NCBI RefSeq assembly: GCF_900156735.1
Contig: NZ_FTOL01000010.1
Location: 1 to 64,000 of the forward strand
Direction: 5' to 3'
From: Chryseobacterium ureilyticum
Lineage (GTDB): Bacteria > Bacteroidota > Bacteroidia > Flavobacteriales > Weeksellaceae
Length of the DNA: 64,000 nucleotides
Numbering within the stretch: position 1 is the first letter of the stretch; each line of letters opens with the position of its first letter. Shown piece by piece: positions 10,336 to 45,196 of this stretch. The notes under the pieces were generated by a model, which did no database searches, was not told where the DNA came from, and worked only from the letters and a program-made list of their open reading frames with translations. Position numbers and translations under genes: made by a program.

Positions 10336-10998
10336 TTATTCGTTATTTTCTATTATTCCTTCTATATGATAATACAGATCTTCTTTGTCAAATTCGGGAG
10401 GATAAATATACTCATTAATAAAAACGGAAGGTGTAGAAATAATATTATTCATGGAAAACCATTCATTCAAAGAAGTAATCTTGTCTTCATTCTCATTAGA
10501 AGGATCTAGCTTTTTATCTTTCCATGGCTTAAGATGCTTATTTTCAAACCAGAAATTGAATGCTTTCATAAACTCTTCAGATCCATCCGATAAAAACAGG
10601 TTTTGAAGAATGTATAAAGGTTCATTTTTGTCTTCAACAGGATGCTTTTTAAAAAAAATATTTATTCTGATTTCTTCTTCATAAGCAAAAAGTATCTTAT
10701 TGATTGTCTCACATATATCTTTGCACATTTCACAGTAAAGGCTTGTAAATATCGTCAATTCCTGTTCACTGCTTTTATTTCCAAGTACAATCACAGGTTC
10801 AGGTAATTCTTTCTTTTCCTCCGTATGTAAAGTATTAATAAAAAGGTTATAGTTTCTGGCAACTCTTTTTTTTCTTATCAGCTGATCTTTGATGTTTTCA
10901 TTTTGTTTTAAATAAGCTCTAATCCTTAGCCATAAAACAAGGATTAACAAATAAAAAACGGCATATAAAACCAAAGGCATAATAGGTATTACATTCAT
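10336..10998 (-). CDS. membrane-anchored DsbA-like thioredoxin (split from VKOR partner)
   Basis: An N-terminal hydrophobic anchor (about residues 8-28) is followed by a thioredoxin-fold domain with the redox pair C89-E-M-C92. The C-terminal part (TPSVFINEYIYPPEFDKEDLYYHIEG) contains the expected cis-proline (TP). It aligns by eye with the last 220 residues of the fused protein at 24142-25650, including the basic stretch RxxRNYxLF after the anchor. The ATG lies one nucleotide after the stop of the VKOR-like gene (TGA-T-ATG), so the two are translated together. Its likely role is to pass disulfides made by the VKOR partner to a periplasmic substrate, probably the cluster's own peptide. Confidence 0.8.
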   Translation of the reverse strand: MNVIPIMPLVLYAVFYLLILVLWLRIRAYLKQNENIKDQLIRKKRVARNYNLFINTLHTEEKKELPEPVIVLGNKSSEQELTIFTSLYCEMCKDICETINKILFAYEEEIRINIFFKKHPVEDKNEPLYILQNLFLSDGSEEFMKAFNFWFENKHLKPWKDKKLDPSNENEDKITSLNEWFSMNNIISTPSVFINEYIYPPEFDKEDLYYHIEGIIENNE

Positions 10999-10999
10999 A

Positions 11000-11857
11000 T
11001 CACATCAATAAAATATATGTTTGTAAGAGTAAAACAAGGATGATCCCAATACATAGAGGACATATTTTTTTGATCCTGAATATCTGATAAAAGAGTGAAT
11101 ATCCTATGACAGGAAAAATGACAATCAACAAAATTTTCTGTATCATGAGGAAAACTCCATCATTGTGGCTTGCTTGCAGAAGTAATAAGCTGACGATATT
11201 CGAAAAGAAATAAACTAAACTGAAATCTCCGAAATTTGAGACAAAATTTTTACTTTTCGTATCGTTGGAGAATGAACAATCTGTATAGTTTCCGGAACAG
11301 ACTCTGTTTACAATATGATTTTCTATTCCGAATATTTTCCTTAGCGAAAGCACAGACATAAAAAATCCACATAACGATAAAAGCAGATAGATGAAAGAAA
11401 ACCGATTTATCTGATAGGCTGCAAAAATCAATAAGATCAGAACAAGACCTACAATTACCCATGGAATATGTCTGTTATTACTTGTCTTTTGGGGTATGGA
11501 ATGTGTTTCATCGATTAAAATGACAATATTATTCCATTTTTTAAGGAAGTCGTTTTCGTCCAGTGTATGTTTTCCGTTGATCAGATAATCTGTATTTGCT
11601 TTCTCAACAAAAACTAATTCCGACTGGTTATCTTTAAGCTCAACATATGTTAAAAAGTCATTGGGTAACTCATGTACCTCTGAATTTTCAATTTCTATCG
11701 CGTAATTATAGATGAAATTTACATTGAGTGCACTTATTATAGACATCAGACTTGGAAAAGCAGGATGCGACTGAATTTGGGAGGTAAATGTTTTTCTTTC
11801 TAAAAGAATATCTTTTTTTTTCAGGTATTTCAAGATATTGTCTATGCTTTCAGCCAT
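11000..11857 (-). CDS. VKOR-family disulfide oxidase with C39-like N-terminal domain
   Basis: Residues about 1-115 resemble the C39-like domain found in Bacteroidota VKOR proteins (SHPAFPSLMSIISAL) but have no cysteine at all, so the domain cannot be a peptidase. Residues about 130-285 form a multi-pass vitamin-K-epoxide-reductase domain. It has the loop cysteine pair C187/C194 and the quinone-side pair C266-P-L-C269. VKOR enzymes reoxidise a thioredoxin partner using membrane quinone. The protein ends where the fused homologue at 24142 continues into its thioredoxin domain. It is downstream of the maturases gwsG and gwsS and a lipoprotein, in one leftward operon. Confidence 0.85.
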   Translation of the reverse strand: MAESIDNILKYLKKKDILLERKTFTSQIQSHPAFPSLMSIISALNVNFIYNYAIEIENSEVHELPNDFLTYVELKDNQSELVFVEKANTDYLINGKHTLDENDFLKKWNNIVILIDETHSIPQKTSNNRHIPWVIVGLVLILLIFAAYQINRFSFIYLLLSLCGFFMSVLSLRKIFGIENHIVNRVCSGNYTDCSFSNDTKSKNFVSNFGDFSLVYFFSNIVSLLLLQASHNDGVFLMIQKILLIVIFPVIGYSLFYQIFRIKKICPLCIGIILVLLLQTYILLM

Positions 11858-11870
11858 ACTATTTTACAGA

Positions 11871-12473
11871 TTATTGAAAGTCTACAGCATTTTTGTCCCA
11901 CAAACTCTGATTAAGATCAAAAAACAAGTTATTGACTTCACGATGAAATTTTTTAAACTGAGGGTCTTTTTCGTCTGGGTTATTCAAATTAATAAACCTT
12001 ATGACTCCCCCATTACTACACTTTCTATAAATATCAACTACATTAAATTTTCCGGAATCATAGGTATACAAAACGCCATTACCTAAATCTACATCTGGTT
12101 TTCTATCATAATCTTGTACTACATTTTCCAAAGAAATATCTTTATAATAAAACCCCAGCATATTATTATAAATGCTCATATTGGTATACATAAACATAAA
12201 TTGCTCTGCGTAAGCTTTTTTTATATGTGTTTTAAGAATATGATCTATATCTTTTGTTGCAAAGAAGACATACTTTTCATTTACTTTATTAAACTGATAA
12301 TCGGAATAGGTGATGAACTGTATATTTTCATCAGAAATTTTTAAGTTATGAATACGATTACCCTCCTCATTATTTGATGGAATAGTATGTTTCAGATAAT
12401 AATAATTTTTACAGCTTTGCATAAAAAAGCTTACACAAAGTACTCCTAACAGCCCTATCAGTTTTCTATTCAT
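11871..12473 (-). CDS. lipoprotein of unknown function in grasp-with-spasm cluster
   Basis: The signal sequence ends in a lipobox (MQSC), giving Cys21 as the lipidated residue. The mature part (about 180 aa) is hydrophilic with many Asn, Tyr and Lys residues. I recognise no family. Around the end of the second third it reads DLGNGVLYTYDSGKFNVVDIY, which looks like a beta-rich fold. It lies 5 nt after gwsS and 13 nt before the VKOR gene, so it is inside the operon. It could be a periplasmic or outer-membrane partner of the peptide (receptor, immunity or chaperone), but nothing in the sequence decides this. Confidence 0.7.
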   Translation of the reverse strand: MNRKLIGLLGVLCVSFFMQSCKNYYYLKHTIPSNNEEGNRIHNLKISDENIQFITYSDYQFNKVNEKYVFFATKDIDHILKTHIKKAYAEQFMFMYTNMSIYNNMLGFYYKDISLENVVQDYDRKPDVDLGNGVLYTYDSGKFNVVDIYRKCSNGGVIRFINLNNPDEKDPQFKKFHREVNNLFFDLNQSLWDKNAVDFQ

Positions 12474-12478
12474 TATTT

Positions 12479-13477
12479 CTAGTTTAATTCAGCATTATAT
12501 GGGTCATAATTACAGGCAACTGCATAGCCATTATTACTTTTAAAGGGAACCTGAACTACCGTACAACAGAATCTGAATTCACAAGCATTACATGGAGCGA
12601 TATCTTCTTTTTTAATATTCCACAACTCGGATAACTTCTGAATGGTTCCGGTTTTTATTTTTTCAAATGAATCTGTTATATTTCCGTAGTTATTGGTATC
12701 AGTGATATTAAATTTAATTTTCCCCGATTCATCTACAAATATGGTTTTATATAATGAAAGATTATAGTTCCTTGCAATATTATAAGCTGTAGTATTGATT
12801 TCAACGGTATTAATATTAAATTTAGGTAAGAACATTCTGGCATCACTTACCGTTATAAAAAGACTCGTCACTTCATTATTTACAAGCGCTTTTTCTTTAG
12901 GTGAGTTAAAGATATACAATGTTTTTAAACGATTATTGGTATATAGTTTTTTATCAATTTTCTGGTAAGGAATAGAGAATGATATATTGGTTACTCTTGT
13001 ATAATCCAAAGCATCCAGGATTGTATTAATTTCTTTCATACAATCTTTACGATCAATATGGATATGTAATCTTTTTACTCCCAATGCACTAATATTCTCT
13101 ATAACAGTATTAAAATGATCTCTAATAAAATCCGAGAGTATCAGCGTAACAAACTGTATTGTGCATGTATCTTCATTAATACTTTTAACAGCCAGCTTCG
13201 GAAAGAACTCTTTATGAGAATAAAAAATAATTTCATTCTTTGCTAAATAATCCAGATACTTTCCAGCCATTTTATCTGCTTCAAATTCATGCAGGACAGA
13301 ACTGATTTTCTTTTGATCAATATATTCCAAGAAATCTATCATTGTATTGGGTACAAATTCTATTTCTTCTCTCTGAAGATCATAAATAGCACCTCTTTCC
13401 TCCCCTTTCACAGGGATACAGCATGAAAATACGTGGATATATTTGTCTTTATTATTCTGTAGATATGTTAATTCCAT
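12479..13477 (-). CDS. gwsS: grasp-with-spasm system SPASM-domain peptide maturase
   Basis: This is a 332-aa protein of the GwsS type. The N-terminal HVFSCCIPVKGEERGAIYDLQ region is characteristic, and the C-terminal cysteine cluster C296-x2-C299-x4-C304-C305...C322 is the SPASM-like metal site. I see no CxxxCxxC radical-SAM motif, as expected for this family, whose members look like radical-SAM peptide maturases without the catalytic cluster. It is thought to act with the ATP-grasp ligase GwsG on the precursor at 14707-14898. The ATG at 13477 overlaps the preceding small gene by 26 nt, which suggests translational coupling. Confidence 0.88.
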   Translation of the reverse strand: MELTYLQNNKDKYIHVFSCCIPVKGEERGAIYDLQREEIEFVPNTMIDFLEYIDQKKISSVLHEFEADKMAGKYLDYLAKNEIIFYSHKEFFPKLAVKSINEDTCTIQFVTLILSDFIRDHFNTVIENISALGVKRLHIHIDRKDCMKEINTILDALDYTRVTNISFSIPYQKIDKKLYTNNRLKTLYIFNSPKEKALVNNEVTSLFITVSDARMFLPKFNINTVEINTTAYNIARNYNLSLYKTIFVDESGKIKFNITDTNNYGNITDSFEKIKTGTIQKLSELWNIKKEDIAPCNACEFRFCCTVVQVPFKSNNGYAVACNYDPYNAELN

Positions 13478-13652
13478 CTTTATAAATTCTTAAGCAATAG
13501 ATTTCTGACTGGTGAATATTAGTCTTAGCTAATCTAAACGGGCGGTCTCTTTTTATTTTACTAACCTCCATGGGAGCTATATGAGAGAAAATTACAGGGA
13601 GAAGCTCTTTCTTTTTTTCGTATCCCAATTCTTTTAATAATGTTTTTTTCAT
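13452..13652 (-). CDS. small basic protein between gwsG and gwsS
   Basis: This 66-aa frame starts with an ATGA overlap on the gwsG stop and ends inside gwsS (26-nt overlap). It is lysine/arginine-rich (MKKTLLKELGYEKKKELLP..., KIKRDRPFRLAK) with one cysteine and no signal or membrane segment. Because gwsS has its own complete N-terminus, this is not a lost front part of gwsS. The tight packing argues that it is real and co-translated. I do not recognise a family. A small leader-binding or scaffolding role for the two maturases is a guess. Confidence 0.65.
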   Translation of the reverse strand: MKKTLLKELGYEKKKELLPVIFSHIAPMEVSKIKRDRPFRLAKTNIHQSEIYCLRIYKDGINISTE

Positions 13653-14614
13653 GTATTCATCGCTTTTAGATGGTTTGCTACTTTATAATGGAGATCATAA
13701 TTACAAGGTAAGGACGTCATTCTAAACTGTCCTGAAGGATTTACTTCCAAAAAATAATAATCACCATCTTTTCCTTTTATAATATCCAGTGACCCTGTAT
13801 CAAGTCCGAGATTCTTCATCAGACTACAGATCTTTTCATCAATTTCTTCAGGTAATTCATAAGGAATCATCCTATTGGGTTTACTATAATTATAATGTCT
13901 ATAATCTACACCTGTCTGTGCATCTCTCTGAGAAAAGATAGCCATTGGGTAGTTTTTTCCATTCAGATGGAAAATTCTAAGTTCATATTCTTTTTCTATT
14001 TTCTCCTGAAACAAACTTGGGAAAAAGCCTTTATAACGGGACATTGTTTTTGGCTTCACTTCCTTTGTTAAAAAGAAAAATATTTCATCTTTAACATTCA
14101 CCACTGTTCCGTCTTTTATTGATTTGGTGATATATGATTCTTTGAGGTCCAGAGAATCAGCAGTATTAGTTATTGTCGTTTTGGGAATGCTTAATCCTAG
14201 CTTTTGAGAAGCGATCAGAGTACTGATTTTATTTATTTTTTTAATATTTGAATAATGATTAAGCCATTTTTTATCTTTTAAAAAATCAAAAAAAAGATCT
14301 AACGTCGTCGTATATTCCAATTTCAGGTATTCCAGCATCTCGATATTAGTTTCCCCTTGCAAATAGGGTTTGAATTTATCAAAAAATCCAAATTTTCTGA
14401 ACCAAACACATTTAACAGATGACAGGTCTGTTTTTTCAAAGTAAATACTTTCTACAAATAATTTAGGTTCCGGTGACAGCTCATAATGCATCTTTATATT
14501 TCCGTTAAACAAATCAAGATCATTTATTCTTAAGCACTTTTCACCTAAAGCAGCCAAATGTTCCATAACGATGTTTGTATCATCATCATTTGGGGTTGAT
14601 AAAATCAGAATCAT
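13649..14614 (-). CDS. gwsG: grasp-with-spasm system ATP-grasp peptide maturase
   Basis: This 321-aa ATP-grasp protein is of the graspetide-ligase (MvdC/MvdD-like) group. ILSTPNDDDTNIVMEHLAALG opens an N-terminal domain that bears the family's WFRKFGFFDKF segment. The ATP-binding part has TKSIKDGTVV, QEKIEKEYELRIFHL and the metal-binding LDTGSLDIIKGKDGDYYFLEVNPSGQF. Such enzymes use ATP to join acidic side chains to Ser/Thr/Lys, giving ester or amide macrocycles. The likely substrate is the peptide encoded 93 nt upstream. Translation is coupled to the next gene by an ATGA overlap. Confidence 0.92.
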   Translation of the reverse strand: MILILSTPNDDDTNIVMEHLAALGEKCLRINDLDLFNGNIKMHYELSPEPKLFVESIYFEKTDLSSVKCVWFRKFGFFDKFKPYLQGETNIEMLEYLKLEYTTTLDLFFDFLKDKKWLNHYSNIKKINKISTLIASQKLGLSIPKTTITNTADSLDLKESYITKSIKDGTVVNVKDEIFFFLTKEVKPKTMSRYKGFFPSLFQEKIEKEYELRIFHLNGKNYPMAIFSQRDAQTGVDYRHYNYSKPNRMIPYELPEEIDEKICSLMKNLGLDTGSLDIIKGKDGDYYFLEVNPSGQFRMTSLPCNYDLHYKVANHLKAMNT

Positions 14615-14651
14615 ATATTATAAATTACCGAATACTATACATTAGATAAAG

Positions 14652-14680
14652 GAAGACTCTTTAAAATATAAAGAGTCTTC
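14652..14680 (-). terminator. hairpin between precursor peptide and maturase genes
   Basis: A perfect 12-bp stem (GAAGACTCTTTA with TAAAGAGTCTTC) closes a 5-nt loop. On the minus strand it follows the precursor gene with only a short T-run (CCTTTATC). The longer T8 tract is on the plus side, where no gene precedes it. Most likely it stabilises or partly terminates the precursor transcript, so the peptide is made in excess over its enzymes. The same arrangement is present at 25926-25954. Confidence 0.65.
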
Positions 14681-14706
14681 AGTTTTTTTTAGATCAGAAG
14701 GGATAA

Positions 14707-14898
14707 CTAGTCACATCCATCATTAGTACCGCCTCCACCTTTTGTAATGGTAAGCGTTTCCAATACATGCGGATCATCCATAGAGCCTGTACCTCCACAT
14801 GGTCCAGCTAATCCTGCACCACCTCCTATTGCTTTTCCAGCCATAATGCTTTTCATGTTTCCTAATTTTTTCCCCTTAAGGTTTTCTAATTTTTTCAT
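14707..14898 (-). CDS. gwsA: grasp-with-spasm precursor peptide
   Basis: This 63-residue peptide has a basic leader (MKKLENLKGKKLGNMKSIM), a glycine-rich middle (AIGGGAGLAGPCGG) and a C-terminal core. The core is rich in possible crosslink partners: T48, T50, T52, K53 and T58 against D41, D42, E47, D60 and D63. It has exactly two cysteines, C34 and C62, so a single disulfide is possible, matching the VKOR and thioredoxin genes downstream. It is the first gene of the leftward cluster, 154 nt from the divergent HTH regulator. I infer the precursor role from size, composition and position. The exact modified residues cannot be read from sequence. Confidence 0.8.
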   Translation of the reverse strand: MKKLENLKGKKLGNMKSIMAGKAIGGGAGLAGPCGGTGSMDDPHVLETLTITKGGGGTNDGCD

Positions 14899-24141: not shown

Positions 24142-25650
24142 ATGATTTTTGACAAACTAATTAACTATCTGAAACTCGATAAGCAGGAGTTTATTTTCCA
24201 GTTTAATTCCCATCCGAATTATCCATCTGCGCTGGCATTTAGCGATACTTTGAACTTTATGGGAGTAAAAAATGATGCCTATGAACTTGACAAAGAATAC
24301 TGGAATGAACTTCCTGAAGAGTTTATTGCAATTGTAGAAAATTCGTTTTCCTTAGTCAAAAAATCAGGAACCAATTACTCAGTCTACTCGGAAAAAGCAA
24401 AAACTTTAAACAAAGAAGAGTTATATAACAAGTCTACAAACTTTGTACTTCTATTTGAAAAAACCGAAAATGCAGAAAGTAAAATGGTCTTCAATTTCAA
24501 GCCTGTTTTATATGCTATTTTTGCAGTCATTCTTATTTATTCCCTTCTCAACCAAACCATACAGGAAGCTATTTTCAACTTACTTTCACTAGCTGGTGTA
24601 TATATTTCATTGGAATTATTCAATCAGAAATTCGGAAATACTTCTACAGTGATCGGAAGTATATGTGGTGCTCCTACTGTTACACAGACAGTTAATGCTT
24701 GTGATAAAATCATAAAACAAGATAAAACCAGTATTTTAGGTTTAAAGTTTTCTGACTTTTCATTAATCTATTTCACAGGGCTTGCGGTATTAGGGCTGTT
24801 TTTACCTGCAACCGCTTATATTGTAAAAGGGTTTACATTTGTTTCCATACTGGCAATTGGATATTCTCTTTACGTTCAGGCTTTTGTAGAGAAGACATTT
24901 TGTAAAGTTTGTCTTTTAATCATTTCAATCCTTGTAGGACAATTGGTTATCAGCAGTTTCTTTTTTGAAAATTACTCATTTGCAGTTGGAATACTTCTAC
25001 TTACTGTTATCTTATGGGCTCTTATTTTTTCAGCAGTAATCTATTTCAATACTTTACTTGAGCAAAAAGAGGAGATTCAAAAGTCAAATGCTAAGAACCT
25101 GAGATTTAAAAGAAATTATGAGCTATTCAAAAGTCAATTATTAACAAAAGATAAAATTGATTTTCAGGATACTCAAACTTTCTCAGTAGGAAAAAAAGAT
25201 ACTAAAGTTCGTATTTCCATTGTTTCCAATCCATATTGTGGTTTCTGTAAAGATGCTCATAAAATTGTAGAAAACCTTTTAGAGAAATATCCGGATGACA
25301 TTTCATTACAAATGAGATTCAATTATATTCCAGAAAGAGCCAATGAAAAATACAATCAGTTGATCTCAGATTTCACTCACATTTACAATAATAAACCTGA
25401 AAAAGAATTCCTTCATGCCATAGAAAAATGGTTTGAAACAAAAGACGAAAGCCAGATCAATACTCTTGTAGGAGGAGTTCCTACATCAGAAAATGTAAGC
25501 CCTCTGGTAGCAATGTCTATGGAAAACAGCAATGCCGGGCTGAACTTCACTCCTGTATTTATTATCAACGGATATCAGTACCCTGAAAGATACGATCGTG
25601 AAGATATTGTATTCTTTGTTGATGAATTAATAGAAGATGAAGACTTTTAG
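24142..25650 (+). CDS. VKOR-thioredoxin fusion disulfide oxidase with C39-like domain
   Basis: This 502-aa protein has three parts. Residues 1-115 form a C39-like domain (HPNYPSALAFSDTLNFMGV) without a catalytic cysteine. Residues about 120-300 form a VKOR membrane domain with loop cysteines C175/C187 and the active pair C254-K-V-C257. Residues about 315-502 form a DsbA-like thioredoxin domain with C366-G-F-C369 and TPVFIINGYQYPERYDRED. It should make disulfides in the periplasm using quinone as acceptor. It is the first gene of the operon that encodes a four-cysteine secreted peptide (25723) and its exporter, so that peptide is the natural substrate. It is the fused counterpart of 10336-11857. 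Confidence 0.88.
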   Translation: MIFDKLINYLKLDKQEFIFQFNSHPNYPSALAFSDTLNFMGVKNDAYELDKEYWNELPEEFIAIVENSFSLVKKSGTNYSVYSEKAKTLNKEELYNKSTNFVLLFEKTENAESKMVFNFKPVLYAIFAVILIYSLLNQTIQEAIFNLLSLAGVYISLELFNQKFGNTSTVIGSICGAPTVTQTVNACDKIIKQDKTSILGLKFSDFSLIYFTGLAVLGLFLPATAYIVKGFTFVSILAIGYSLYVQAFVEKTFCKVCLLIISILVGQLVISSFFFENYSFAVGILLLTVILWALIFSAVIYFNTLLEQKEEIQKSNAKNLRFKRNYELFKSQLLTKDKIDFQDTQTFSVGKKDTKVRISIVSNPYCGFCKDAHKIVENLLEKYPDDISLQMRFNYIPERANEKYNQLISDFTHIYNNKPEKEFLHAIEKWFETKDESQINTLVGGVPTSENVSPLVAMSMENSNAGLNFTPVFIINGYQYPERYDREDIVFFVDELIEDEDF

Positions 25651-25722
25651 TAAAAAAAAGCTGACAATTCTAAAATTTCACTATCTTAGGAAAAATAAAG
25701 CATTAACCAAAAACTATATATT

Positions 25723-25887
25723 ATGAAAAATCTTAAAAAACTTTCAAGAGAGAACTTAAGAACACTAAAAGGTGGTATTACACAGGAATGTGCAAGAATC
25801 CAAAGTGAAGCAAGCTACTGCGAGTCCAAAATAAATCCACCTAAGGAAGGAGCTATTAATGCATGTAACAAATGGTGCTACTACTAG
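25723..25887 (+). CDS. double-glycine leader peptide with four core cysteines
   Basis: This is a 54-residue peptide. The leader MKNLKKLSRENLRTLKGG (1-18) is a typical Bacteroidota double-glycine leader for C39 exporters: basic, with Leu at the usual positions before GG. The 36-residue core contains C23, C33, C48 and C52 and ends WCYY, so two disulfides are possible. It lies 72 nt after the disulfide oxidase and 83 nt before the C39 exporter. It is followed by a hairpin. It resembles flavobacterial 'bacteriocin-like' peptides. Antimicrobial, signalling or other function cannot be told from sequence. Confidence 0.85.
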   Translation: MKNLKKLSRENLRTLKGGITQECARIQSEASYCESKINPPKEGAINACNKWCYY

Positions 25888-25925
25888 CCAACCATTTCTT
25901 TGAATTATAATATTGAATAAAGCAA

Positions 25926-25954
25926 AAAATGTCGTCAAAATATGACGACATTTT
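25926..25954 (+). terminator. hairpin between peptide and exporter genes
   Basis: Inverted repeat AATGTCGTCA / TGACGACATT (10 bp, plus A/T pairs) around a 5-nt loop, ending in TTTT. It sits 39 nt after the peptide stop and 17 nt before the exporter start. It could be a leaky terminator that sets a high peptide-to-exporter ratio. Confidence 0.7.
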
Positions 25955-25970
25955 ATAATGAGTATTAGTT

Positions 25971-28163
25971 TTGAAAAAATTCCCCTTTTATAAGCAGCCA
26001 GACACTAAAGACTGCGGACCAACCTGTCTGAGAATCGTAAGTAAATATTACGGTAAAAATATATCCCTACAACAGATACGAGCTCTTTCTGAGACTACCC
26101 GTGAAGGAAGCAGCCTTTTGGGGCTGAGTGATGCTGCAGAAAACCTGGGATTCCGATCGATGGGAGTTCAGGTTGACTTCAAAACCCTTGTAGAAGAAGT
26201 TCCACTTCCTTGTATTGCCCACTGGAACAAAAACCACTTTGTTGTAGTTTATAAAACAGATAAAAATAACAACGTATATATATCAGATCCAAGTTATGGC
26301 TTGATTTCTTACACACAGGAAGAATTCATTAAAGCCTGGATTGGAGAAAACGCTAATGAAAATACGGAAGAAGGAATTGTTCTTATTCTGGAAACCACAC
26401 CAGCATTCTTTCAAACGGAATTTGATTCTGAAGAAAGTAAAGCCAGCTTTTCATTCCTTTCCAAGTATCTGTTAAAATATAAATCCCTTGTCATTCAATT
26501 GGCGGTAGGGCTTTTAGCAGGAAGTTTACTTTCACTGGTATTCCCTTTCCTTACGCAAAGTATTGTGGATGTCGGTATTCAGAATCAGGACATCAACTTT
26601 ATCTACGTGGTACTTCTTGCCCAGATCATGCTGTTCCTTGGAAGAATGGGTATCGAAGTGATCAGAAGCTGGATCCTTCTTCACCTTTCAGCCAGAATAA
26701 ATATTTCGATCATTTCCGATTTCTTCATTAAGCTGATGAAGCTCCCTATAAGCTTCTTCGATACTAGGATGACGGGTGATATCATGCAAAGAATTAACGA
26801 TCATCACAGGATAGAACAACTTTTAACAAGTTCTTCACTGAACACTTTGTTCTCGCTTGTGAATCTTATTATTTTCAGCATTGTTTTATTACTGTATGAT
26901 TACAGGCTTTTCATTGTTTATCTGATTGGTGCTGGATTATATATCGGATGGATTACCTTTTTCCTTAAAAAAAGAAAAGAACTTGATTATAAAAGATTTT
27001 CCCAGGTTTCTCAGGAGCAAAGCAAAGTCATTGAATTAATCAACGGTATGCAAGAAATCAAAATGCATAACGCTGAAAAGCAAAAACGTTGGGATTGGGA
27101 ATTTCTTCAGGTAAAGTTATTTAAAATAAGGATAAAATCACTTTCATTAGAACAATGGCAGTCAGTAGGAGGAAATTTCATTAATCAGATTAAAGATATT
27201 CTGGTAAGCTTCCTTTCTGCAAAACTGGTATTAAGTGGAAACTTAACATTAGGGATGATGCTTTCTGTACAATACATCATTGGACAGCTGAACAGCCCGC
27301 TTTTGCAGCTCATCGATTTTATTAAGCAAACTCAGGATGCTAAAATATCCCTTGAAAGATTAGGAGAAATTCATGATAAAGAAGATGAAGAAAGTAAAGA
27401 TGAGCAGTACGCCATGGATATTCCACATAGAGATATCGAAATTACAGATATGTCTTTCAGATATGTAGGATCAGATGTTCCTGTCTTTGAAAACCTGAAT
27501 CTTACAATCCCTTATCAAAAAACTACTGCTATCGTGGGAGCAAGTGGAAGTGGAAAAACCACTTTACTTAAGCTTTTGATGAAATTTTATGATCCTGACA
27601 AAGGAGATATTAGAATCGGAAACACAAGCATGAAAAACATATCTCCACGTTTCTGGAGAGATCATTGTGGTGTAGTAATGCAGGAAGGTTATGTATTTAA
27701 CGATACTATCGCCAATAATATCGCAGTGGGTGAAGATCACATTGATAAACGGAAACTAAGGCGAGCAGTAGAAATTGCCAATATTAAAGACTTTATAGAA
27801 GGCTTACCTCTCAGCTATAATACAAAGATCGGAAATGAAGGTGTTGGAGTAAGTGGCGGACAAAAGCAAAGACTCTTTATAGCAAGAGCAGTTTACAAAT
27901 CACCTCAATACATCTTATTTGATGAAGCTACATCTGCATTGGACGCTAATAACGAAAAGGTTATTATGGAAAATCTAGAACAGTTCTTCCAGGGAAAAAC
28001 AGCCGTAGTTATTGCTCACAGGCTTTCCACTGTAAAACATGCCGACAAAATTATTGTATTGGATAAAGGAAGGGTTGTAGAAGAAGGAAGCCACGCAGAA
28101 TTAGTTGATTTAAGAGGCGAATACTACAGATTGGTTAGAAATCAACTAGAATTAGGAAATTAA
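25971..28163 (+). CDS. peptidase C39 / ABC exporter (PCAT)
   Basis: This 730-aa bifunctional transporter cleaves double-glycine leaders and exports the core. The N-terminal C39 peptidase (1-about 140) has QPDTKDCGPTC with catalytic Cys15, His89 (NKNHFVVVY) and Asp106 (ISDPSYG). A six-helix ABC membrane domain follows (about 160-455). The ATPase (about 485-725) has GASGSGKTT (Walker A), VSGGQKQR (signature), ILFDEATSALD (Walker B) and the H-loop IAHRLST. The start codon is TTG at 25971; the nearby ATG at 25958 is in another frame. Low initiation from TTG plus the upstream hairpin would both lower exporter levels relative to the peptide. Confidence 0.93.
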   Translation: MKKFPFYKQPDTKDCGPTCLRIVSKYYGKNISLQQIRALSETTREGSSLLGLSDAAENLGFRSMGVQVDFKTLVEEVPLPCIAHWNKNHFVVVYKTDKNNNVYISDPSYGLISYTQEEFIKAWIGENANENTEEGIVLILETTPAFFQTEFDSEESKASFSFLSKYLLKYKSLVIQLAVGLLAGSLLSLVFPFLTQSIVDVGIQNQDINFIYVVLLAQIMLFLGRMGIEVIRSWILLHLSARINISIISDFFIKLMKLPISFFDTRMTGDIMQRINDHHRIEQLLTSSSLNTLFSLVNLIIFSIVLLLYDYRLFIVYLIGAGLYIGWITFFLKKRKELDYKRFSQVSQEQSKVIELINGMQEIKMHNAEKQKRWDWEFLQVKLFKIRIKSLSLEQWQSVGGNFINQIKDILVSFLSAKLVLSGNLTLGMMLSVQYIIGQLNSPLLQLIDFIKQTQDAKISLERLGEIHDKEDEESKDEQYAMDIPHRDIEITDMSFRYVGSDVPVFENLNLTIPYQKTTAIVGASGSGKTTLLKLLMKFYDPDKGDIRIGNTSMKNISPRFWRDHCGVVMQEGYVFNDTIANNIAVGEDHIDKRKLRRAVEIANIKDFIEGLPLSYNTKIGNEGVGVSGGQKQRLFIARAVYKSPQYILFDEATSALDANNEKVIMENLEQFFQGKTAVVIAHRLSTVKHADKIIVLDKGRVVEEGSHAELVDLRGEYYRLVRNQLELGN

Positions 28164-28208
28164 AATAATATTCTTTTCAAATTTGGAAAGAAATTTTATC
28201 TCAGAAAA

Positions 28209-29507
28209 ATGAAAGAAGACGTTTTAGACAATATCGAACTCCGCTCAGAAAGTGTACAGGATATTCTTACCCAGCCGCCTAATTGGATGATACGTTGGGG
28301 AAACACAGTTATATTTGTGATTATCCTGCTTATTTTCGTAATGAGTTATATTATAAAATACCCGGAATTTGTGCCGGCTCCCATTATTGTAACTTCTCAA
28401 AATCCTCCGGAGAAAATAGAGGCAAGAATAGGGACCAGAATAGAGAAAATATTTATTAAAGATCATCAGGAAGTTAAAAAGAATGATGTACTAATGGTCA
28501 TGCAATCTGCAGCCAATTACAAGGATGTTCTGGAACTAAAAAAAATCGTTGATTCTATATCTCCGAATCAACTGTATTCTTTTCCTCTTGCCCAGTCATC
28601 CAGATTTAAGCTTGGAGAATTGCAGGGAGAATACAACAGTTTTGCAAAAGCTTTTCAAGATGAAGAACTTTTCAGAAGGTTACAACCTTACGTTCCCGAA
28701 AACCTCGCTTCTCAAAAGAGTATTTCTGAATATAAATTAAGAATGACAACTTTAAGACAGCAGAAAAGTCTGGAATCCGTAAAATATGATCTTACTAAAA
28801 AGAATTTTAACAGATCTCAGGAACTCTTTAATCAAGGAGTAATCTCTGCGGTAGAACTGGAAAATGAAAAGATTAAATATCTTCAGGCACAGCAAAACCT
28901 TGAGAATATTAATATATCCATATCTCAGGCTGAGGAAGGAATTTCAAATATTAACAAAACTCAAAGCGTTACAGCAATCAACTCGGAAAAAGAAAGAATT
29001 ACTTACTCTGCACAGACTTTACAGTTATTTGAACAACTTAGAAAGTCATTAAAGCAATGGGAGCAAAATTACCTTGTTATTTCTTCCACGAATGGTGTAG
29101 CAAGCTTCCAGCAGTTTTTCGGGGAAAATCAGTTTGTAAAGCCGGGAGAGCCTATAGTTTCTATCCTACCAAAGAACAAAGATCGAATAGTAGGAAGAAT
29201 GTCTGTTCCTACAGCCAATTCAGGGAAGATTATTCCAGGAGAAAAGGTCTTGATCAAACTTGATAACTTCCGTTTCCAGGAATATGGTATTATCGAAGGG
29301 AAAGTTCAGAATATATCTCTTATTCCGGACGACAAAGGAAATTACTATGTAGATGTAGTTTTGCCAAACGGTTTAAAGACAAGCTACAATAAAACCTTGA
29401 AGTTTGATAAAGAACTTAGAGGTAACGCTGAAATCGTCACAAAAGATCTCAGACTTATTGAAAGGTTCTTCTACCAAATCAGAGAATTATTAGGCTATCA
29501 GGCATAG
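28209..29507 (+). CDS. HlyD family secretion adaptor protein
   Basis: This 432-aa membrane-fusion protein links the inner-membrane exporter to the outer membrane. A single N-terminal membrane helix (about 32-56, VIFVIILLIFVMSYII) is followed by a lipoyl-like half motif (EARIGTRIEKIFIKDHQEVKKNDVLMVM). A long coiled-coil hairpin follows (about 160-275, SLESVKYDLTKKNFNRSQELF...), then a beta-barrel region (PGEPIVSILPKNKDRIVGRMSV). It lies 45 nt downstream of the C39 exporter and ends the operon before a strong terminator. Confidence 0.9.
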   Translation: MKEDVLDNIELRSESVQDILTQPPNWMIRWGNTVIFVIILLIFVMSYIIKYPEFVPAPIIVTSQNPPEKIEARIGTRIEKIFIKDHQEVKKNDVLMVMQSAANYKDVLELKKIVDSISPNQLYSFPLAQSSRFKLGELQGEYNSFAKAFQDEELFRRLQPYVPENLASQKSISEYKLRMTTLRQQKSLESVKYDLTKKNFNRSQELFNQGVISAVELENEKIKYLQAQQNLENINISISQAEEGISNINKTQSVTAINSEKERITYSAQTLQLFEQLRKSLKQWEQNYLVISSTNGVASFQQFFGENQFVKPGEPIVSILPKNKDRIVGRMSVPTANSGKIIPGEKVLIKLDNFRFQEYGIIEGKVQNISLIPDDKGNYYVDVVLPNGLKTSYNKTLKFDKELRGNAEIVTKDLRLIERFFYQIRELLGYQA

Positions 29508-29524
29508 TCATACAAAATAATCAT

Positions 29525-29553
29525 AAACCGTTTCTTTTTGAAGCGGTTTTTTT
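29525..29553 (+). terminator. terminator of the peptide-export operon
   Basis: A 10-bp stem AAACCGTTTC/GAAGCGGTTT with one G-T pair closes a 5-nt loop and runs into T7. It lies 18 nt after the HlyD stop. Confidence 0.9.
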
Positions 29554-44882: not shown

Positions 44883-45196
44883 TTTTATTTTTATTGGATT
44901 CTTACAAAAATACTAATTACAGTGGTTTTGAGGAAACTTAGGAAGCATAATTTTCAGTATAAAAGCCGGAAAATCAGGATAGGAAATTATGATTGAATAA
45001 GGAATTACTGATTATTGGCTAAAAAGTATAAAAATATCCCTTTACGTAGAAATACGGAGTGCTCAATTTGGTATTTTCTACTCTAGTACTGCCTTGGGAA
45101 TAGTTGTTCCTTTGGGTAAGAAAATAAACCATTAAAGGCGGAATCTGAAAAGCCCAGGAACAGAGTAGGAAATTAAAGCTTAAAAAAACTATTATT
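44883..45196. other. intergenic spacer, divergent
   Basis: About 310 nt between divergent genes. It holds a -7-like box (44905-44912, minus strand) for the hydratase gene and no clear rightward promoter. The frame at 45019-45222 on the minus strand overlaps the next gene's start and has no recognisable features, so I do not call it. Confidence 0.4.

Follow-up and report, generated by a model that had tools for sequence, protein, structure and literature searches.

The window analysed here, 64,000 nucleotides of the Chryseobacterium ureilyticum contig NZ_FTOL01000010.1 (positions 1 to 64,000), contains an operon with genes for a VKOR-DsbA disulfide oxidase, a short peptide with a leader ending in double glycine (GG), an exporter composed of a C39 peptidase and an ATP-binding cassette (ABC) transporter, and an HlyD-family adaptor (Table 1). 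With somewhat better than even prospects, the oxidase, exporter and adaptor, termed hub in the following, form a genus-core machinery that matures and exports small disulfide-bonded peptides encoded throughout the genome. In the most novel version of this reading, which we give a probability of roughly 0.4, disulfide formation would be a leader-directed modification in the cytosol, in which an inverted VKOR-DsbA protein with a leader-docking domain knots the members of a combinatorial, genome-wide peptide library before they pass a single exporter. The gene order, the association of hub and leaders, the cysteine parity, the paired loss of cysteines, the predicted fold and the charge asymmetry were computed; from these we infer docking, orientation and activity of the oxidase and the export of unlinked peptides.

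Association of the hub with unlinked GG-leader peptides

The source genome (5.18 Mb, 27 contigs) contains two C39 exporters, two VKORs, both on the contig of the window, and 55 leader-model matches at E ≤ 1, of which 32 exceed the cut-off, on nine contigs. As the contig of the window holds only one leader match, that of the operon peptide, the remaining leaders are unlinked to the hub. The 3-kb flanks of seven peptide loci, inspected by eye, revealed solitary peptide genes amid ordinary-looking genes. In a set of 60 Chryseobacterium genomes including the present one, the hub oxidase was found in 57, with one broken copy, and leaders at E ≤ 0.001 in 56 (6–45 each, median 25, 1405 in total), which corresponds to a Fisher p of 1.2e-4 (raw table 56/1/0/3, relatedness uncorrected). 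No leader above the cut-off was detected in the hub-less genomes G011, G053 and G057. G011 and G057 provided no match at all to the fusion oxidase, and G053 carries an exporter ca. 90% like that of the hub as well as a distant oxidase paralog with a 6-Cys GG peptide beside it. G029 possesses the hub, together with two GG peptides (6 and 4 Cys) that score below the cut-off and reside on contigs other than that of the hub. Sixteen hub genomes with exactly one C39 match carry 297 leaders together; this match is located at the hub in 15 of them and on another contig in G018, where a contig end cuts the hub. One hub per median of 25 leaders (56 genomes), whose genes are mostly unlinked to it where loci were examined, does not fit the self-contained secretion system postulated in an earlier note on this DNA, and we consider it very probable that the hub serves many peptides, the unlinked ones presumably also leaving through its exporter.

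The order oxidase, C39-ABC, HlyD is preserved in 55 of the 57 genus hub loci (window included), the stretch ending early in the other two, and the exporters are 86–95% identical among the genus hubs examined. The peptide slots comprise 0–5 genes before and 0–4 genes after the ABC gene; a peptide recognised by a regular expression lies in one slot or the other in 48 of the 55 hubs and in neither in 7. A set of named loci (80 kept out of 445 oxidase relatives found), which overlaps the genus set in strains and is labelled Chryseobacterium or Weeksellaceae throughout, offers a corresponding picture. The closest oxidase among the named loci kept is that of Chryseobacterium artocarpi (98% identical), a C39-ABC gene follows downstream on the same strand in 78 loci and HlyD in 77, and 15 of the 78 hubs are devoid of a regex-detected peptide in either slot. 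The co-occurrence check suggested in the earlier note therefore came out positive, the oxidase going with C39 exporters and GG peptides, but the peptide-less hubs in both sets contradict its assumption of a dedicated system. One hub (L240) contains a decayed peptide remnant without GG.

The association was further explored on 20 other C39 loci of the genus and 20 VKOR loci outside it, both hand-picked from the search rows. At 17 of the 20 C39 loci no oxidase match above 60 bits occurs within ca. 16 kb; seven GG peptides were detected there by the regular expression, whose pattern derives from hub leaders so that other leaders may escape it, and these have 0, 0, 0, 0, 2, 2 and 4 Cys. The regex peptides at the three loci with an oxidase have 2, 6 and 6 Cys. 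VKOR is found in 73 of 296 genomes of the phylum. Ten of the 20 non-genus VKOR loci match the fusion oxidase; GG peptides with cysteines occur at every one of these (21 of the 22 peptides with even counts), accompanied by a C39-ABC gene within the stretch at eight, while the stretches around the ten non-fusion VKORs contain neither Cys-bearing GG peptides nor a C39-ABC gene. Records labelled as plasmids show comparable assemblies: in Aureibacter the fusion is found with two 6-Cys GG peptides, a peptidase ABC and HlyD, a 7-Cys GG peptide being ca. 6 kb off; in Spirosoma with a 6-Cys GG peptide, glycosyltransferases, a peptidase ABC and HlyD; and in Parabacteroides distasonis with a 6-Cys peptide whose leader is of GG type, with LanC-like and glycosyltransferase genes and with a peptidase ABC. 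Another record of P. distasonis carries a split form and a 6-Cys peptide, with no exporter in the stretch.

Cysteine parity of the peptides

All 32 model rows of this genome above the cut-off have even Cys counts (2 once, 4 in 13, 6 in 16 and 8 in two cases). The 22 rows below it include 20 with 4, 6 or 8 Cys, one with 5 and one with none, the tally by model coordinates covering 54 of the 55 leader rows. By regular expression 49 peptides were found in the genome, 48 of them even. At the genus hub loci 143 of 146 regex peptides are even, three of these having zero Cys and some lying off-strand or outside the slots, and at the named hubs each of the 120 regex peptides has 4 or 6 Cys. Cores at homologous loci thus carry cysteines, as required by the earlier note. 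Five single-exporter genomes, sampled with 100 of 109 rows (nine rows of G049 left out), gave 95 even peptides and five odd ones forming one orthologous family. When 265 distinct peptides were pooled into 95 families, the modal Cys count was even in 91 of the 93 Cys-bearing ones; random control open reading frames (ORFs) of 40–90 residues with at least 4 Cys comprise 79 even and 48 odd cases. Moreover, in the family of the window peptide (27 sequences) all 11 four-Cys members lack the third and fourth Cys of the 15 six-Cys members, and the single three-Cys member is cut short. Even parity and the joint loss of two Cys are expected under disulfide bonding. The only consistently odd family has five Cys (..PEFCMYAC..VICATCS..) and is present in this genome (C3:463-513), G013, G024, G046, G049 and G058; its members perhaps dimerize or retain a free thiol.

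Domain architecture of the oxidase

The oxidase scores 34.8 bits against PF07884 (cut-off 27.5) and 42.3 bits against Thioredoxin_4 (cut-off 23.2), and with this score and the four active-site cysteines it is, at the level of sequence, a member of the VKOR family PF07884. Structural comparison with VIA aligned the VKOR core with Synechococcus VKOR 4nv5 (Z 12.9, root-mean-square deviation (rmsd) 2.2, 123 aligned) and the thioredoxin domain with ScsC 6mhh (Z 15.7, rmsd 2.8, 158 aligned). In an alignment of 37 relatives, the VKOR cysteines C175, C187, C254 and C257, the CGFC pair C366 and C369, and P471 are invariant, and the same holds for H24 and P28, which belong to a SHPNYPS motif of the N-terminal domain.

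The latter domain, modelled by folding the N-terminal 109 residues alone (pLDDT 88.8), most closely resembles the peptidase domains of ComA, LahT150 and PCAT1 according to Foldseek. VIA comparisons with ComA, LahT150 with bound leader, PCAT1 and the C39-like domain of HlyB resulted in Z values from 11.7 to 10.7, the best match having an rmsd of 2.9 over 109 aligned residues. Profile alignment with the C39 domains of the hub exporters by hhalign (probability 98.2, E 4.6e-14) supports the same assignment, and the C39-like N-terminus already suspected in the earlier note was borne out. The hhalign match begins past the segment containing Cys15 of the exporter, and no His occupies the place of H89. 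The N-terminus is thus predicted to adopt a C39 fold in which the catalytic Cys and His are missing, i.e. to be a dead leader-reading domain. In view of the modelled fold, we judge docking of GG leaders onto it somewhat more likely than not. We are considerably more confident that the oxidase makes the disulfides of the peptides.

Orientation in the membrane

For 62 of 64 fusion homologs, hydropathy analysis indicated six helices, the CxxC helix being preceded by four. Due to the extra helix TM0, the C39-like domain, the active-site loop, the CxxC motif and the DsbA-like domain come to lie on one side of the membrane. This side is highly enriched in Lys and Arg (0.164 per residue vs 0.013 on the opposite side), a bias found in 37 of 37 sequences when helix limits were projected on the alignment; an initial run on unprojected helices gave the same bias in 63 of 64, one helix having been missed. 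Judged from its charges, the hub oxidase departs from the usual VKOR orientation, in which the active side lies opposite the positive side. Among 24 control VKORs without the C39-like domain, whose profile found none of the controls below E 1, 18 have a bias opposite to that of the fusion, 5 share its direction and 1 is equally charged on both sides. These are 24 of 25 sequences, L354 being left out because its CxxC helix was not found; the chosen starts of L217, L220 and L222 are implausibly far upstream. The 16 controls longer than 390 residues include 14 with opposite bias, among them all 11 of these with three helices before the CxxC helix. Synechococcus VKOR has 3 Lys/Arg on the active and 6 on the opposite side by eye count on the alignment.

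A second line of evidence comes from the split homolog encoded elsewhere in the window and five relatives, in which the first membrane helix is preceded by at most one Lys/Arg and directly followed by several, and which in 6 of 6 cases reads as N-out/C-in. Because of the charge bias and this helix orientation, the active side of the oxidase, including the C39-like domain, the VKOR site and the DsbA-like domain, is predicted to face the cytosol, unlike in most other VKORs compared; we regard this as fairly likely. A cytosolic face makes mechanistic sense: precursors carry their leader only as long as they are in the cytosol, and this is where a domain that reads it can be useful. An inverted VKOR/DsbB has reportedly been described before.

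Proposed mechanism and alternatives

On these grounds we propose the following scenario. Precursors encoded by many unlinked genes share a Lys/Arg-rich leader ending in GG, which might dock on the inactive C39-like N-terminus of the oxidase. The attached DsbA-like domain would then oxidise the core cysteines and might in turn be re-oxidised by the VKOR core, which presumably delivers the electrons to the membrane quinone. Since the charge bias points to a cytosolic position of all three oxidase parts, the bonds would form there, with the leader still attached. Subsequently, the active C39 domain of the exporter would bind the same leader and cut after GG, and the core might be exported via the ABC protein, HlyD and presumably an outer-membrane channel encoded elsewhere. 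The products may be bacteriocins or signals. The parts of this machinery are ordinary; the combination of a leader-reading and probably cytosol-facing oxidase with one exporter for a large unlinked library is unusual.

The same hub might alternatively operate with a periplasmic oxidase, such that the peptides are cut, exported and only then oxidised, the C39-like domain merely tethering the oxidase to the exporter. This would conform to the extracytosolic site of action that is usual for VKOR and DsbA. The Lys/Arg excess of the active side, seen in each of the 37 sequences, and the N-out/C-in reading of all six split DsbA-like homologs speak against it, and with six helices the C39-like domain would likewise be placed in the periplasm, where it could meet the peptides only after leader removal; we therefore judge a periplasmic site rather unlikely. 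The shift of bacteroidetocin upon reduction, according to the excerpts of PMC6671954, is compatible with either site. Could the oxidase instead be the general disulfide machinery of the cell, located next to the exporter by chance? The presence of DsbB in just 2 of the 60 genus genomes and of only two VKORs in the present one would agree with such a function. Yet G011 and G057 show no fusion match (other VKORs were not searched there), outside the genus GG peptides accompany the fusion type and not the other VKORs, and the C39-like domain would be left unexplained, which renders this explanation improbable. Least of all do we expect the operon to handle exclusively its own peptide, with the unlinked GG peptides taking other routes or staying unexported. 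Although the 48 of 55 hubs whose operon does contain a peptide in either slot are in line with this view, it was rejected on the number of leaders in the single-exporter genomes and on the peptide-less hubs, and the unlinked genes have the same leader and Cys parity.

Several observations weigh against the proposed leader-directed oxidation in the cytosol. Disulfides formed there must withstand reducing conditions, and the exporter would have to pass already oxidised peptides. The positive-inside rule is fallible, as illustrated by the six control VKORs without the opposite bias. A regex-detected peptide ahead of the exporter is missing in 32 of the 78 named hubs. Hub-like exporters at L316 and L319 lack an oxidase, and the fusion loci L226 and L229 a C39-ABC gene, in the stretches examined. 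G038 (hub L120) retains 42 leaders despite a broken oxidase frame, for which an assembly error is possible. Where a genome has more than one C39 exporter, the unlinked peptides may leave by a different one than that of the hub. Odd Cys counts exist in the five-Cys family, a 3-Cys peptide (L229) and the 7-Cys peptide of Aureibacter, and no obvious immunity gene was seen by eye in the 3-kb flanks of the seven peptide loci.

If correct, leader-directed oxidation by the hub would explain how a genus with rare DsbB produces dozens of disulfide-rich peptides, and would represent a new way to direct disulfide formation, namely by docking the leader on the oxidase. It would also expose a large natural set of cysteine-rich peptides, corresponding to the leader matches counted above in the 60 genomes, and offers a testable reading of the five-transmembrane (five-TM) protein of bacteroidetocin loci.

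Relation to known systems

In prochlorosin biosynthesis many precursors are served by one maturation and export machine; prochlorosins contain lanthionine rings made by unrelated enzymes, in contrast to the predicted disulfides of the hub peptides. They are also named in the excerpts of PMC6363468, which describe the PCAT/AMS exporters (LahT, PCAT1, ComA) as fusions of an active C39 domain with an ABC exporter, as in the hub, report a broad leader tolerance of LahT150 and attribute substrate recruitment to C39-like domains without the catalytic Cys. Compared to the systems in these excerpts, the hub possesses a second, dead C39-like domain that is attached to a redox enzyme and not to a transporter. 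HlyB (PDB 3zua) also carries a C39 fold without the catalytic Cys, on the exporter in that case and on VKOR-DsbA in the hub. Synechococcus VKOR-Trx (PDB 4nv6 and relatives) shares the fusion of a VKOR core with a thioredoxin-like domain and differs by the absence of the additional N-terminal C39-like domain and helix and by the opposite charge bias.

The nearest precedent is provided by the bacteroidetocins (class IIf), whose regions, in the excerpts of Coyne et al. 2019 (PMC6671954), encode a five-TM protein, a four-Cys GG peptide, a thiol oxidoreductase and a C39-ABC exporter, and in which deletion of the oxidoreductase or five-TM protein gene attenuates the toxin. The GG leader, four core Cys and the proximity of thiol oxidoreductase and C39-ABC in one region are common to both systems. 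As far as the excerpts go, the bacteroidetocin oxidoreductase and five-TM protein are separate genes, whereas the hub has a single gene in which C39-like, VKOR and DsbA-like parts are fused, also includes HlyD and is accompanied by dozens of precursors encoded at unlinked loci. As the split homolog, in which C39-like VKOR and DsbA-like protein are encoded separately, is similarly built, we guess by analogy that the five-TM protein might be a split C39-like VKOR. Among the matches listed in the open-licence PMC literature, VKOR was not joined with C39 exporters or GG peptides; the statement of the earlier note that few reports exist of a VKOR beside GG exporters was fair in this respect, but the bacteroidetocin regions of PMC6671954 are a published precedent for a GG peptide next to a thiol oxidoreductase and C39-ABC. 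The leaders themselves are already modelled in NCBIfam as leader_Chryseo (NF047798) and CCPGW (NF047792) and called bacteriocin-like; the descriptions, as far as given, name neither exporter nor oxidase.

Operon layout and further features of the window

Domain matches confirmed the four genes on one strand with small gaps in the order given by the earlier note, and likewise the short GG-leader peptide with four core cysteines.

Table 1. Features of the hub operon and of the split VKOR cluster in the window (positions of the 64,000-nucleotide stretch).
Feature	Position	Strand	Basis
C39-like/VKOR/DsbA-like fusion oxidase, 502 residues, six predicted membrane helices	24142-25650	+	Pfam, alignment, model
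N-terminal C39-like domain (~residues 1-116), no catalytic Cys/His, SHPNYPS motif	24142-24489	+	hhalign, Foldseek, VIA
Extra membrane helix TM0 (~residues 117-136) ahead of VKOR core	24490-24549	+	AF2 helix 120-137; hydropathy
VKOR core (~residues 139-277), four invariant Cys	24556-24972	+	VIA to 4nv5
DsbA/ScsC-like thioredoxin domain (~residues 337-500), CGFC active site	25150-25641	+	VIA to ScsC 6mhh
GG-leader peptide gene, 54 residues	25723-25887	+	NF047798, family alignment, pN/pS
Peptide leader, 18 residues, GG at end	25723-25776	+	
Peptide core, 36 residues, 4 Cys	25777-25884	+	
Hairpin of 12 pairs in the peptide-exporter gap, conserved	25926-25954	+	
C39 peptidase/ABC exporter (PCAT), TTG start	25971-28163	+	Pfam domains, conserved catalytic residues
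HlyD-family adaptor	28209-29507	+	HlyD_3 44.5 bits (cut-off 22.2); gene order conserved
Terminator-like hairpin downstream of HlyD	29525-29549	+	
Second VKOR, split type, in grasp-with-spasm cluster	10336-14898	-	
Separate DsbA-like protein of split VKOR	10336-10998	-	
Split C39-like VKOR, ends after CxxC helix	11000-11857	-	
SPASM protein of cluster	12479-13477	-	133.9 bits, below 175
ATP-grasp gene of cluster	13649-14614	-	TIGR04192 270.6 bits, over 230
Precursor-like ORF, 63 residues, two Cys	14707-14898	-	

The window peptide matches leader_Chryseo with 34.1 bits (cut-off 23.5) and stays below the cut-off of CCPGW (22.4 vs 80); a Pfam search yielded no match, and the class IIa bacteriocin motif YGNGVXC, as quoted in the excerpts of PMC6671954, is not present in its core. 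That the peptide gene is real follows from its alignability across species and from the proportion of nonsynonymous differences (pN) in the core, which lies far below that of synonymous ones (pS; means of 0.12 vs 0.65 over 13 hub-slot sequences, window included). The exporter scores 126.5 bits for Peptidase_C39 (cut-off 22) and 111.3 and 103.5 bits for the ABC membrane and ATPase domains, both over their cut-offs, and 446.7 bits against NCBIfam bacteriocin_ABC (TIGR01193), below the curated cut-off of 523.85. Residues C15, H89 and D106, which we take to be the catalytic Cys, His and Asp, are invariant among 14 aligned sequences; with this domain set and the triad kept, the exporter is, by sequence, a PCAT.

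The single promoter-terminator pair assumed in the earlier note was found in part. A hairpin follows HlyD; a second conserved one lies inside the operon, and sites were counted in comparison with shuffles (terminator-like 4 vs 3.1; promoter-like 32 vs 23.2, standard deviation 5.0, in a scan that does not cover Bacteroidetes promoters). The internal hairpin is present in 13 of 13 sequences (window included), with a mismatch in one and paired changes in L089, and may separate peptide from exporter expression.

The genome-wide C39 search found no exporter gene at the grasp-with-spasm cluster. The second C39 exporter of the genome (C12:224851) is not favoured as carrier of the unlinked peptides, since 16 hub genomes have one C39 match and neither VKOR lies on its contig. 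Read by eye, its locus (L137 5969-12317, contig C12) has an adjoining HlyD-like gene and, nearby on the opposite strand, a gene for a 272-residue protein with a GG-type leader.

Expression signals upstream of peptide genes

A shared Bacteroidetes promoter, TANNTTTG, occurs upstream of 33 of 148 peptides vs 16.2 expected and is too weak to use. Of 41 matches to DUF805b RNA (RF02914) in four genomes, with 150 candidates scored per genome, 15 directly precede a GG peptide gene, for instance at L022, L146 and L175. Control of all peptides by one RNA element was rejected because this RNA precedes only some peptide genes; the copy within the window (45135-45171) precedes a different gene.

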